Of a stretch of DNA of 64,000 bases, positions 28,597 through 37,499 are shown one piece after another; within the stretch, counting starts at the first letter, position 1; the number at the start of each line of letters is the position of its first letter. This stretch comes from Gemmatimonadales bacterium (lineage in GTDB: Bacteria; Gemmatimonadota; Gemmatimonadetes; Palauibacterales; Palauibacteraceae): positions 62,001-126,000 of the forward strand of contig VXOJ01000014.1 in the NCBI GenBank assembly GCA_009840115.1, written 5' to 3'. A program made the position numbers and the translations under genes. Under the pieces are notes generated by a model. It made no database searches. It was given only the letters and a program-made list of their open reading frames with translations, and was not told the origin of the DNA.

Positions 28597-30006
28597 TCAG
28601 TCGTCGGCGATCATTGGCGGCAGGCCGATGGGCCGTGCCCTGCCGATGGCGGATCCGATCGCCAGCGCCCGCCCCTCGCCGCGCGGGGGGCCGACGACCT
28701 GCAGCCCGACCGGCAGCCCCGCCGAATCCAGACCCGCCGGGACGCAAGCGATGGGCAGACCGGGCATCGAGAGCAGGAAGGTCGGCGCGATCCAGTCCAC
28801 GTACGTCGCCATCGGCCGCCCTCCGACCGTCTCCGGATAGTTCTGCTCCGCCGGGAAGGGCGGGATCGCCATGCACGGCGTGAGCAGCACGTCGTACCGG
28901 TCGAGGAGGGCGAGAAGCTCTTCCCTCACCCGGCGGCGCACGTTTTCGGCCCCCCCGATCTCGGCCGGGGTCAGCGCCAGTCCCGAACGGAGGTTCGCCG
29001 ACACGTTGGGCCCGAAGGCGTCGACCCGGTGGAGCTCCGCCTCGAAATGGGACACGAACCAGTGCCCGCGGAGGGCGAGAAACGCGTCCCACGCCCAGGA
29101 GAGGTCGAGGTCCACCTCGTCGACCTGCGCGCCTGCCGAGCGAAGCGACGCCAGCGCCTCGCCGCATGCCGCCTCCACGCCACTGTCGATTCCGATGCGC
29201 GCGATGTCACCGCAATACGCCCAGCGGCCTCCGGCGAGATCGGCGGTGCCGGGTTCCGGCCAGGGCGGCTCGGGAGCGCAGACCGGCGAGGCCGGATCGG
29301 GTCCCGAGATCGCGCGGAGCCCGAAGGCGACGTCTTCGGGGTCCCGTGCCATCAGGCCGGTCGACTGCAGGTCATCCCACAGGTAGGCCGCCGGCACCGT
29401 CGGGACGAGCCCCGGCGTGGGGCGAAGCCCTGCGATGCCGCAGAACGAGGCCGGGATCCGCAGCGAGCCGCCGAGGTCGGTGCCCTGCGCGAGCGAGATC
29501 ATTCCCGTCGCGAGAGCGACGGCTCCGCCTCCCGTGGATCCCCCCGCGCTGAGGGCGGGATTCCACGGATTCCGCGTCACGCCGAACACTTCGTTCCAGG
29601 TGTTTCCACCCGCCGCGAACTCCGGCGTATTCGTCTTTCCGAGGATCACGGCGCCCGCCTCGCGCAGGCGGCGCACGACAAGCGCATCCTCCTCGGGCAC
29701 GTGGTCCGCGAACAGCGGCGAGCCGTACGTCGTACGGAGGTCCGCCGTCTCGGTCACGTCCTTGATGCCGACGACGAGCCCCGCGAGGGGCCCCGGATCC
29801 GTGCCGTCCGCGAGGGCCGCGTCGACCGCGGCCGCCTCCGCCTCGGCCGCGGGATTCGGGGTCACGATCGCGTTCAGCGTCTCGTTGTGGCGTGCGACCC
29901 GAGTCAGGCAGGCGCGGAGCAGGTCGGCCGCGCTCAGCGCACCCGCGCGGATGCGTCGGGCCTGTTCCCGCGCCGGGAGCAGCGCCGGATCGCGGCGTTC
30001 CGTCAC
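28597..30006 (-). CDS. Amidase-signature-family hydrolase
   Basis: 469 residues. Cleaves carbon-nitrogen amide bonds by a Ser-cisSer-Lys triad: LVVGIKDVTETA (Lys near 80), the Gly/Ser-rich SAGGSTGGGAVALATGM with the cis-Ser, and GTDLGGSLRIPASFCG with the nucleophile Ser. Thr in place of the second Ser of GGSSGG is a known variant and is not disabling. GTG start at 30006, 29 bases after the secreted serine hydrolase. In the context of coxSLM, cyclase and matB it may cleave a linear amide to give malonate, as ureidomalonase (same family) does. Confidence 0.92.
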   Translation of the reverse strand: MTERRDPALLPAREQARRIRAGALSAADLLRACLTRVARHNETLNAIVTPNPAAEAEAAAVDAALADGTDPGPLAGLVVGIKDVTETADLRTTYGSPLFADHVPEEDALVVRRLREAGAVILGKTNTPEFAAGGNTWNEVFGVTRNPWNPALSAGGSTGGGAVALATGMISLAQGTDLGGSLRIPASFCGIAGLRPTPGLVPTVPAAYLWDDLQSTGLMARDPEDVAFGLRAISGPDPASPVCAPEPPWPEPGTADLAGGRWAYCGDIARIGIDSGVEAACGEALASLRSAGAQVDEVDLDLSWAWDAFLALRGHWFVSHFEAELHRVDAFGPNVSANLRSGLALTPAEIGGAENVRRRVREELLALLDRYDVLLTPCMAIPPFPAEQNYPETVGGRPMATYVDWIAPTFLLSMPGLPIACVPAGLDSAGLPVGLQVVGPPRGEGRALAIGSAIGRARPIGLPPMIADD

Positions 30007-30035
30007 GGCAGGCGAATCTCCCCGCTCACGGGCTG

Positions 30036-31196
30036 CTACGGCAGGAACATCTGGGCGATGGCCTCGCCGTACCTCGCCGAGTCGAAGGGGAGCGCGTTCG
30101 TCTGGAGCGCGACGACCACGCCGTAGTCGTCGAAGTTCGCGAGGAAGGACCGCGTCCCCTTCACCGTGCCCGTGTGGCTCGGATAGCGACGTCCCTTCGG
30201 ATCCGTTCGGATGAACCACGCCAGCGCCTGCTCGTGCGCGATCGGATCGCCGAGTCCGTCCGGCGACGAAGGATCGATCTGCCGAATCCCCGGCTCGAGT
30301 TGCGGCCGGTGCATCTCGGCCACGGTCTCCGGCGCGAGCAGGCGTCCGTCGTTGATCGCGATCGCGAAGCGGACGAGGTCTTCCACGTTCGAGACGATGC
30401 CGCCGCCGGCGTACTTGTAGCTCGGGTCCTCCGGCGGGGCGTTGATGAAGCGGCCGGACTCGCCCCGGACGTAGCCGCGGCCGCGGTTCTGCACGACCCG
30501 CGACGGGACGTCGAACTGGGTGGCGAACATCCCCGCCGGCTCCCACACGTAGCGCTTGAGGTATTCCTCGTAGTCCATACCGGACGCCGCCTCGACGATC
30601 CCGTGCTGGAGGTTGTGCGCGTGCGAGGAGTACATCCACCCGGAGTCCGTGTCGTACGCGAGGGGGTCGTCGCGCCACAGCTCCGTCGCCTCCTCGAAGG
30701 TGTCGTAGTGCCGGAGCGCGAGCAGGCCGTGGGGGCCGAACTCGACGCCGTTGTAGTGCCGGATGCCGGAGGTGTGGGTGAGGATGTGGCGCACCGTGAT
30801 CGGGAACTCCCGCTCCGGATACCAGGGCATGTACGTCTGTAGCGTCGCGTCGAGATCCACCTTCCCCTGCTCGACGAGCTGCATGAGACCCACCACGGCC
30901 AGCACCTTCGACACCGATCCCACGTTGTGGACGGTCCGGCCCGTGGCCGGGGTGCGATTGTCCAGTTCGGCGACGCCCACGCCTTCGGAGAAGACGATCT
31001 CCCCGTCCACCGCCACGGCGACGGACAGCCCGGGAAGGTCGTTGTCGTGGCGGATCTGCTCCATGTAGTCGAGCAGTCCCTCCCAGGAGAAGCTCTGAGC
31101 CTCCAGCGGGGTCGCGGTCCGCGACAGGAAACCGAACGCCAGAAGGAGCGACAGCAGCGGCAATGCGTTCGTCCGCGCACGGTTGGCGATCGTCAT
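30036..31196 (-). CDS. Secreted serine hydrolase, beta-lactamase / class C family
   Basis: 386 residues from ATG 31196. Sec signal (ALPLLSLLLAFGFLSRTATPLEAQ), then the beta-lactamase/DD-peptidase fold with VGSVSKVLAVVGL (S-x-x-K), SGWMYSSHAHN (Tyr of the Y-x-N/S motif) and a late SHTGTVKG (H/K-T-G). Targets may be an ester, a cell-wall peptide or a lactone. Exported, unlike the amidase and cyclase on either side. Confidence 0.9.
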   Translation of the reverse strand: MTIANRARTNALPLLSLLLAFGFLSRTATPLEAQSFSWEGLLDYMEQIRHDNDLPGLSVAVAVDGEIVFSEGVGVAELDNRTPATGRTVHNVGSVSKVLAVVGLMQLVEQGKVDLDATLQTYMPWYPEREFPITVRHILTHTSGIRHYNGVEFGPHGLLALRHYDTFEEATELWRDDPLAYDTDSGWMYSSHAHNLQHGIVEAASGMDYEEYLKRYVWEPAGMFATQFDVPSRVVQNRGRGYVRGESGRFINAPPEDPSYKYAGGGIVSNVEDLVRFAIAINDGRLLAPETVAEMHRPQLEPGIRQIDPSSPDGLGDPIAHEQALAWFIRTDPKGRRYPSHTGTVKGTRSFLANFDDYGVVVALQTNALPFDSARYGEAIAQMFLP

Positions 31197-36952: not shown

Positions 36953-36968
36953 GCGCGGCCCATCCGGC

Positions 36969-37499
36969 TCAACGGTCGCCGTCCCGGTCGGCGCCGGGGC
37001 CGTCCGCCGCGAGGCGTTCGGCCGCGAGCGCTACGCCTTCCACGATGTTGTGGTAGCCGGTGCAGCGGCACAGGTGGCCGGACACCGCCTCGCGGATCTC
37101 CTCCCGCGAAGGCGCCGGGTTCTCACGCAGGAAGGCCTCCGCCGTCATCAGGATGCCCGGGGTGCAGAAGCCGCACTGCAGACCGTGCGCCTCGTGCAGG
37201 GCCCGCTGGACCGGGTGCAGTCGTTCGACGGAGACCGCTTCCCCGGGCGCCGCCGCCGCGAGTCCCTCGACCGTCGTCACCTCGTGCCCCTCGATCTGCA
37301 CGGCGAACATGAGGCAGGCCCGCACCGGCTCCCCGTCCAACTGTACGGTGCACGCCCCGCACACCCCGTGCTCGCACCCCACGTGCGTGCCGGTGAGCCC
37401 GACCTCTGAGCGCAGGAAGTCCGACAGGAGCAGCCGCGGCTCCACGTCCCCGGACCACGCGCTGCCGTTGATCCGGGCGGATATTCGCACGGAGTTCAA
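36969..37499 (-). CDS. coxS: [2Fe-2S] subunit of molybdenum hydroxylase (CoxS-like)
   Basis: 176 residues. Plant-type cluster CEHGVCGACTVQLDGEPVRAC and the C-terminal cluster (CGFCTPG, then CRCTGY), both complete. TTG 37499 is chosen; GTG 37490 (VRISARING) is an alternative. Starts five bases after the stop of the propeller gene and 16 bases before coxL: order S-L-M, with the FAD subunit last. Confidence 0.93.
   Translation of the reverse strand: MNSVRISARINGSAWSGDVEPRLLLSDFLRSEVGLTGTHVGCEHGVCGACTVQLDGEPVRACLMFAVQIEGHEVTTVEGLAAAAPGEAVSVERLHPVQRALHEAHGLQCGFCTPGILMTAEAFLRENPAPSREEIREAVSGHLCRCTGYHNIVEGVALAAERLAADGPGADRDGDR

Follow-up and report, generated by a model that had tools for sequence, protein, structure and literature searches.

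Within a 64,000-nucleotide stretch from the genome of a marine Gemmatimonadales bacterium (GenBank assembly GCA_009840115.1, contig VXOJ01000014.1, positions 62,001 to 126,000; hereafter the window), seven genes on the minus strand between window positions 28597 and 37499 lie in the order coxS-coxL-coxM-matB-cyclase-serine hydrolase-amidase. An initial annotation made from the letters alone had placed all seven on one strand under these identities, and Pfam families agree for every one of them. Comparison with relatives makes it highly probable that the block belongs to one conserved route for the breakdown of an N-heterocycle, with a PF04199 cyclase-family hydrolase as the ring opener. We also favor, with less assurance and from sequence comparisons, the view that the ring is of nucleobase type, a pyrimidine (most likely uracil or thymine, by way of barbiturate), and that it is taken to malonyl- or methylmalonyl-coenzyme A (CoA). 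The window belongs to a 3.4-Mb genome that is 98% complete, and whose nearest named relatives include Candidatus Palauibacter metagenome-assembled genomes (Gemmatimonadota).

In the route that we propose, the molybdenum (Mo) hydroxylase encoded by coxSML would oxidize uracil or thymine to barbiturate or 5-methylbarbiturate. The PF04199 hydrolase would open this cyclic imide to ureidomalonate or ureidomethylmalonate, thereby standing in for barbiturase, whose fold is unrelated to its own. The amidase would then cleave the ureido acid to malonate or methylmalonate, which the MatB-like ligase would activate to malonyl-CoA or, from thymine, methylmalonyl-CoA. The later steps may differ in relatives: in Firmicutes, Desulfovibrio and Chloroflexota a carbamoyl transfer by AllF/AllG(H) could yield carbamoyl phosphate and, probably, malonamate or methylmalonamate; a nitrilase-family amidase may take part in some relatives; and in some a class III CoA-transferase could perform the activation. 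We infer all of these substrates and products from the genes and families observed, their conservation and co-occurrence, and the alternative modules.

Whether gene order is kept in relatives had been set beforehand as one of the points on which a single pathway should stand or fall, and on this point the pathway stands. Among 80 relatives the cyclase was found in 26, comprising 15 of the 17 genomes of the genus (the window's own included), 7 of the family outside the genus and 4 of the class outside the family. The arrangement is not accidental: in 14 of the 16 other genus genomes the cyclase is accompanied by the serine hydrolase and the amidase with the order kept, and pieces of the set turn up in further families and phyla as well as in an archaeon. 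Within those 14, matB adjoins in 13, a CoxL of the window's own clade (clade A, E 1e-200 or better) shares the contig in 11 and is found on a different one in the other 3, and identities are 91-100% for the cyclase and 75-97% for CoxL. In cyclase loci beyond the genus, a serine hydrolase of the window kind was not detected, and the amidase usually lies directly beside the cyclase; across relatives of the class it adjoins the cyclase or lies near it. We observed an acyl-CoA-dehydrogenase-like flavoprotein gene between cyclase and amidase in two genomes of genus g6 (locus L039, 10660-11805; L041, 3952-5097), and, in one member of the window's genus (L022, G010:C129), a cyclase match with one in-frame TAA near the contig end, which may be genuine or may stem from an error at the edge of the assembly.

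The association of the Mo hydroxylase with the cyclase rests on more than neighborhood, because it is visible in co-occurrence by genus and in genomes where the two genes are apart. Among the 80 relatives, 25 have clade-A CoxL and 26 have the cyclase, 23 of them having both; the five discordant genomes (cyclase without clade-A CoxL in G020, G028 and G034, CoxL without cyclase in G024 and G027) are all 71-88% complete. Counted over the 39 genera of these relatives, clade-A CoxL occurs in 7/7 genera with the cyclase vs 1/32 of the others (Fisher 5e-7). Furthermore, we picked 13 genomes from the 34 loci that show no CoxL; 8 of these genomes carry clade-A CoxL (63-71%) elsewhere, and the remaining 5 have distant CoxL only, at 43% identity at best.

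A profile search with the cyclase, run on contigs representing one genome per species, returned 154 encoding loci. Our counts of spread refer to the best 80 of these, which have 70-99% identity and come from several phyla, with titles including Gemmatimonadetes or Gemmatimonadota, Acidobacteria, KSB1, Calditrichaeota, Planctomycetota, Firmicutes, Desulfovibrio and Chloroflexi; the Firmicutes carriers include the isolate Lutispora saccharofermentans. Genes were counted by tblastn at a query coverage of at least 25% and identity thresholds of 30-60%, and weak homologs are missed because these thresholds are fixed. Many of the loci end at contig edges (54 of the 80 are at least 12 kb long), and some genomes stand both among these loci and among the 80 relatives, such that the two counts are not independent. 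Grouped by function, cox genes are present in 54 loci, an amidase or AllG/FdrA/nitrilase in 67, matB or a CoA-transferase in 32, and an NCS1 or NCS2 permease in 32. The individual counts are amidase 50, coxM 48, clade-A coxL 41, NCS1 27, matB 25, AllG 18, FdrA 15, serine hydrolase 10, NCS2 9, M20 hydrolase 8, nitrilase 8, CoA-transferase 7 and clade-B coxL 5, followed by PucR 3, methylmalonyl-CoA epimerase 3, mmdA-like decarboxylase 2, dihydropyrimidinase-type gene 2 and carbamate kinase 1. The combination predicted at the outset, namely a Mo hydroxylase, a PF04199 opener, an amide-cleaving enzyme and CoA activation, thus recurs in relatives. The apparently secreted serine hydrolase, which had been listed with the set, does not belong to its core: its 10 loci, like the 8 with the M20 hydrolase, are all from the window's own genus, and it is best described as a genus-level insertion.

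The composition of the more distant loci bears on the chemistry. In Firmicutes, Desulfovibrio and Chloroflexota versions, AllG/AllF carbamoyltransferase genes replace the amidase. Every one of the 15 FdrA loci and of the 8 nitrilase loci also has AllG, and amidase and AllG are found together in 1 of the 80 (p 1.7e-8; 3.5e-5 for the 54 loci of at least 12 kb), although these p-values, like that for matB and the CoA-transferase below, ignore kinship, and the AllG forms are mostly from Firmicutes and Chloroflexota. The Lutispora locus (L082) encodes a class III CoA-transferase, methylmalonyl-CoA epimerase and FdrA (both above cut-off), AllG, the cyclase, a nitrilase-family hydrolase, NCS2 and PucR, with no Mo hydroxylase in the locus. 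Two other Firmicutes loci (L118 and L125) have a xanthine-dehydrogenase-type Mo hydroxylase, AllG, the cyclase, nitrilase, FdrA, a CoA-transferase, and an mmdA-like decarboxylase and biotin carrier that both score below cut-off. In Desulfovibrio (L075) we found AllH, a PucR-type gene, carbamate kinase and YqeB (both above cut-off), FdrA, the cyclase, AllG, a Mo hydroxylase and an NCS2-type permease assigned by clustering; this is the sole locus in which AllF, AllG, AllH and carbamate kinase were all seen together, and the module is absent from the window operon. The names AllG and AllH for DUF1116 and DUF2877 follow an excerpt of PMC12625717. A Chloroflexi locus (L130) includes a dihydropyrimidinase above cut-off. 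Closer to the window, an NCS1 nucleobase permease (PF02133) lies inside the set in L035, L037, L039 and L040 outside the genus and in L046 within it, and that of L069 scores above the NCBIfam NCS1 cut-off; L040 (G033) shows a class III CoxA-type neighborhood, in which a class III CoA-transferase replaces matB and AllG lies beside the set. A plasmid of the haloarchaeon Halorussus vallis (L138, 92-12227) has a cyclase at 39% identity in the company of MoeA, a CoA-transferase, XdhC, CoxG, NCS2 symporters and three subunits of a Mo hydroxylase; other haloarchaeal plasmids carry similar cyclases (37-40%). From these additional genes we infer that a urea-like N-C-N unit may be released, that nucleobase permeases may import the substrate, and that (methyl)malonyl-CoA enzymes may take the carbon out.

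The proposal that PF04199 takes the place of barbiturase fits the distribution of the AtzD/barbiturase family (PF09663), which was found in 0/80 relatives, including the window genome, and in 0/41 cyclase genomes; some genomes belong to both sets, and no built-in control gave a signal in either search, but the same family search finds its target on pRL10 at 4e-146. The family was likewise not found in four plasmid records, nor in any of 297 genomes of the phylum group of L121, which includes L113, titled Acidobacteria, and is therefore not the actinobacterial control that was intended. Because L121, titled Acidimicrobiia, falls into one phylum group with L113, one of the two labels is probably wrong. 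The pRL10 protein led on to AtzD-family loci in Citrobacter, Acidithiobacillus, Rhizobium and Nonomuraea, two of which appear, by their gene content, to be cases of an AtzD fold in the slot filled here by PF04199. The Citrobacter freundii plasmid NZ_CP042536 (L145, 7989-15631) has, after the gene for an AtzD-family ring opener, those for NCS2, AllH, FdrA, AllG and carbamate kinase, and in Acidithiobacillus caldus an AtzD-family gene has the three subunits of a Mo hydroxylase before it and AtzE after it. The Citrobacter set looks like a mobile module for the use of cyanurate or barbiturate; AtzD-family genes at the same 51% identity to the query are listed on Klebsiella, Enterobacter, Leclercia and Raoultella plasmids. 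The AtzD-family locus of Rhizobium pMK-3 is of cyanurate/biuret type.

Examination of the individual proteins places the cyclase in the PF04199/isatin hydrolase superfamily, by both its metal motif and its predicted fold. The motif HxGTHxDxPxH is present in 69/69 homologs checked, with the P replaced in 6. The structure model has a predicted template modeling score of 0.82 and a mean predicted local distance difference test score (pLDDT) of 77, with the metal-motif region mostly below pLDDT 50. By VIA-align, isatin hydrolase 4j0n ranks first (Z 17.5, root-mean-square deviation 2.9, 195 residues aligned, 22% identity), tied with a Ruegeria cyclase (Z 16.9) and followed by kynurenine formamidases at about Z 16, with several others within 1 Z; Foldseek orders them differently and puts Ruegeria cyclase 8f9x first (1.6e-10, against 3.8e-9 for the isatin hydrolases). 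The arylformamidase equivalog model gives 63.9 bits vs a cut-off of 223, and the protein does not classify as an isatin hydrolase or kynurenine formamidase proper. No link between PF04199 and barbiturate was found in the open-access papers searched. Rhodococcus plasmids carry a cyclase (34% identity) and an amidase (41%) whose neighbors differ in kind from those described here.

The Mo hydroxylase has the 2Fe-2S, FAD and Mo-binding subunits of the xanthine-oxidase family, as identified by Pfam. The best solved relatives of its CoxL are CoxL 8uem (487 bits) and quinoline 2-oxidoreductase 1t3q (473 bits), and the motif VTPVRGAGRQ, or a one- or two-letter variant, is found in 34/41 clade-A CoxL homologs, with 7 unmatched by the pattern. 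The amidase is a member of the amidase-signature family, with the Ser-cisSer-Lys motifs GGS[T/S]GG, GTDLGGSLR and the GIKD lysine in 45/45 homologs checked. The initial annotation had described ureidomalonase as an amidase-signature enzyme, for which the papers searched offered no confirmation. The ligase compares best in the PDB with MatB structures (4fuq, 294 bits; 3nyq, 280; chimera 4gxq, 309), the best oxalate-CoA ligase scoring 205.

A number of observations weigh against the pyrimidine reading or against individual parts of it. The ligase reaches 381.3 bits vs a cut-off of 558 for the NCBIfam malonyl-CoA synthase (PRK07514), which is still the best of the models shown. The exclusivity of amidase and AllG follows taxonomy, and that of matB and the CoA-transferase (together in 0/80 loci) is not significant (p 0.09). 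AllH, sought with a single query, is in just 2/80 loci, one of which (L128) lacks AllG, and the decarboxylase and the epimerase are confined to the two and three loci counted above. The NCS1 permeases are nearest to allantoin permeases, and the CoA-transferase is near succinate-glutarate and CoA:oxalate transferases, all of these matches being below cut-off. The AtzD family also holds cyanurate hydrolases, and therefore the slot in the Citrobacter plasmid need not mean barbiturate; the sole actinobacterial AtzD-family gene examined, in Nonomuraea, is without related neighbors. Among relatives, G049 has no amidase within the 20 kb examined, matB of G072 sits on a separate contig, and within the window's genus the NCS1 permease was detected in G004 alone, leaving the window genome and 15 of its 16 genus mates without a match. 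Finally, none of the 26 cyclase-bearing relatives has a strong urease match, and therefore urea from the amidase step may not be usable. Matches at E 0.001 or better occur in 15/80 relatives, and 8/80, the window's own genome included, reach the 23-bit family cut-off; with the exception of G063 (169 bits, no cyclase) their scores are 21-25 bits and the matches span roughly a third to a half of the model, and we provisionally read those at the cut-off as other amidohydrolases.

A rival idea is that the ring is a hydantoin- or imidazole-type ureide: oxidation would give a parabanate-like imide, the cyclase would open it to oxalurate, carbamoyl transfer or hydrolysis would lead to oxamate or oxalate, and CoA activation would end in oxalyl-CoA. 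According to an excerpt of PMC11326118, AllFGH has been assayed only with oxamate/oxalurate and carbamoyl phosphate, which counts in favor of this idea and against our own, as do the leanings of the permease and the CoA-transferase just mentioned. The dihydropyrimidinase/hydantoinase of L130 counts for this idea and for our own alike. We have kept it under consideration because MatB, the CoA-transferase and the permease all fall below equivalog cut-offs, the latter two leaning partly toward oxalate and allantoin. Nevertheless, we regard it as unlikely: the ligase is far nearer to MatB than to oxalate-CoA ligases (309 vs 205 bits), the oxalate scheme has no place for the methylmalonyl-CoA epimerase and decarboxylase-like genes of some loci, no oxalyl-CoA decarboxylase is among the annotated genes, and the permease and CoA-transferase matches that support it are themselves below cut-off. 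A pyridine-type ring (nicotinate or a relative), hydroxylated and opened to another dicarboxylic acid, would agree with the quinoline and 6-hydroxypseudooxynicotine enzymes among the solved relatives of CoxL, but the carbamoyltransferase-type genes, carbamate kinase and nucleobase permeases of relatives imply a urea-like N-C-N unit, and we give a pyridine very little credence.

It has also to be asked whether the Mo hydroxylase oxidizes carbon monoxide (CO) or an aldehyde, with the hydrolases and ligase belonging to unrelated acyl metabolism and adjacent by chance. The top model for CoxL is indeed aerobic CO-dehydrogenase group 5 (867 bits, cut-off 950), followed by glyceraldehyde dehydrogenase, yet all of the CoxL models, including CO_dehy_Mo_lg (517 of 991 bits), stay below cut-off. 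The active-site motif of form I aerobic CO dehydrogenase is AYXCSFR; it is not in the window CoxL, which reads PVRGAGRQ there, and on these two grounds of score and motif we conclude that the protein is not a form I CO dehydrogenase, as judged by its sequence. Since CoxL moreover tracks the cyclase across genera and in 8/13 genomes without a shared locus, chance adjacency seems very improbable. A different concern is that the nucleobase route is ancestral and that the window's genus (the Palauibacter group) has re-aimed it, with NCS1 lost and the serine and M20 hydrolases gained, at a ring that is released from some larger extracellular molecule and enters the cell by another path. That NCS1 is present in 1/17 genus genomes, that the serine hydrolase and M20 hydrolase are particular to this genus among the 80 loci, and that LVIVD-repeat genes and an SSF symporter are neighbors would suit such a change. 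The cyclase and CoxL are, however, strongly conserved in the 14 genus mates, at the identities given above, which speaks for an unchanged substrate, and we consider a re-aimed route doubtful. Breakdown of uracil or thymine through barbiturate remains our preferred reading of the block.

The coordinates of the genes discussed are collected in Table 1.

Table 1. Genes of the proposed ring-catabolic block and its flanks, in window coordinates.
Gene and predicted product	Position	Strand	Remarks
coxS, [2Fe-2S] small subunit of xanthine-oxidase-family Mo hydroxylase	36969..37499	-	Fer2_2 1.1e-30, Fer2 5.5e-07; 16 nt upstream of coxL
coxL, Mo hydroxylase large subunit	34607..36952	-	MoCoBD_1/2; motif PVRGAGRQ
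coxM, FAD subunit of Mo hydroxylase	33714..34610	-	FAD_binding_5 2.2e-45, CO_deh_flav_C; 4-nt overlap with coxL
matB-like AMP-forming acid:CoA ligase	32149..33717	-	TTG start 33717, or start 33663; MatB structures best in PDB
PF04199 cyclase-family metal hydrolase, proposed ring opener	31260..32048	-	PF04199 4.5e-38; HMGTHLDAPRH
Beta-lactamase-fold serine hydrolase, apparently secreted	30036..31253	-	PF00144 2.8e-62; later start 31196 possible
Amidase-signature hydrolase, proposed cleavage of ring-opened ureido acid	28597..30006	-	PF01425 1.9e-94
M20 hydrolase, YgeY/ArgE-like, possible extra amide cleavage	27284..28501	-	PF01546 2.4e-31; NF009555 YgeY 271 bits, cut-off 321
SSF sodium:solute symporter	24506..26050	+	PF00474 4.9e-29; 98% identical neighbor in L047

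Four-base overlaps had been claimed to couple coxL, coxM and matB. That between coxL and coxM holds; that between coxM and matB requires the TTG start, whereas a codon model favors 33663, and this second overlap is plausible but not certain. Further along, matB and the cyclase are about 100 nt apart, the cyclase and serine hydrolase 6 or 63 nt depending on the start, and the serine hydrolase and amidase 29 nt; the M20 hydrolase follows 95 nt downstream of the amidase on the same strand. The signal peptide of the serine hydrolase was judged by eye only. No NCBIfam model scores above cut-off for the SSF symporter, and we offer it as a speculative replacement importer for the lost NCS1 permease. 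Just upstream of coxS and on the same strand, an asparagine synthase gene (39602-41281) lies between two genes for LVIVD-repeat proteins (37505-39523 and 41285-43609), one of which also has bacterial Ig-like domains, and matching neighbors are found in genus loci only. A Sir2 deacylase (PF02146) is encoded at 18461-19414 and contains the sequence EWYAWRRS, whose YxxR pattern we take to be typical of class III sirtuins. It had been suggested that this sirtuin could remove stray malonylation; we found no genomic link, the gene being on the other strand about 9 kb from the amidase.

Beyond the window, we put forward tentatively a broader view: that oxidation of uracil and thymine is widespread in Bacteria and Archaea, that it may use a PF04199 barbiturate hydrolase that arose independently of barbiturase, and that it may exist in two forms, one with an amidase and malonyl-CoA ligase and an energy-conserving one in which AllF/AllG would turn the ureido acid into carbamoyl phosphate and a CoA-transferase would hand malonate on to a biotin-dependent decarboxylase. 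If PF04199 does perform the barbiturase step, the oxidative pyrimidine route has been undercounted, as cyclase relatives are encoded at 154 loci and 0/41 of the genomes tested have the barbiturase family. To our knowledge, uracil/thymine dehydrogenase and ureidomalonase are activities without assigned genes, and the block would supply candidates for both. The proposal would also give another role to Cox-like genes, which invite a mistaken reading as CO oxidation, and it raises the possibility that certain anaerobes obtain ATP from pyrimidines via carbamoyl phosphate.

Several characterized systems share features with the block. Isatin hydrolase (4j0n/4m8d; PF04199) opens a cyclic amide and resembles the cyclase in fold and in the HxGTHxDxPxH motif, but identity is 22% and the gene context here is nucleobase-like. 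With the MatB malonyl-CoA synthetases 4fuq and 3nyq the ligase has the ERYGMTE region in common, and with 4fuq also SNPYDGxRxPGxVG; it falls below the NCBIfam cut-off, and its activation of malonate is putative. Excerpts of PMC12507026 describe, for uric acid breakdown, hydrolytic and phosphorolytic removal of the ureido group: in the reductive pathway of E. coli and C. difficile the same choice is seen between UacY (hydrolytic) and YgeW (phosphorolytic), together with a Mo-cofactor enzyme and the M20 protein YgeY, whereas the ring openers, products and gene set reported there differ from those of our cluster. As presented in the excerpt of PMC11326118, the E. coli AllFGH oxamic transcarbamylase and AllK carbamate kinase correspond to the FdrA/AllG and, in L075, also the AllH and carbamate kinase of some cluster versions; by contrast, the genes here have a ring opener as neighbor, joined at several loci by a Mo hydroxylase, the proposed substrate is ureidomalonate instead of oxalurate, and the module is not in the window.

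The closest parallel is the oxidative pyrimidine pathway, in which, according to excerpts of PMC3758960, pyrimidines are converted to barbiturate, and barbiturase and ureidomalonase then yield malonate and urea; the route is called rare there, with AtzD/barbiturase homologs in 3% of 6423 surveyed genomes. Our proposed chemistry would follow the same order of oxidation, imide opening and ureido-acid cleavage to malonate. In contrast to the pathway as described in those excerpts, the opener here is a PF04199 protein and not of the AtzD/barbiturase fold, CoA activation is linked to the set, a carbamoyltransferase version exists, and the set is found in a haloarchaeon and in records titled Gemmatimonadota, Acidobacteria, KSB1, Calditrichota, Firmicutes, Desulfovibrio, Chloroflexi and others.

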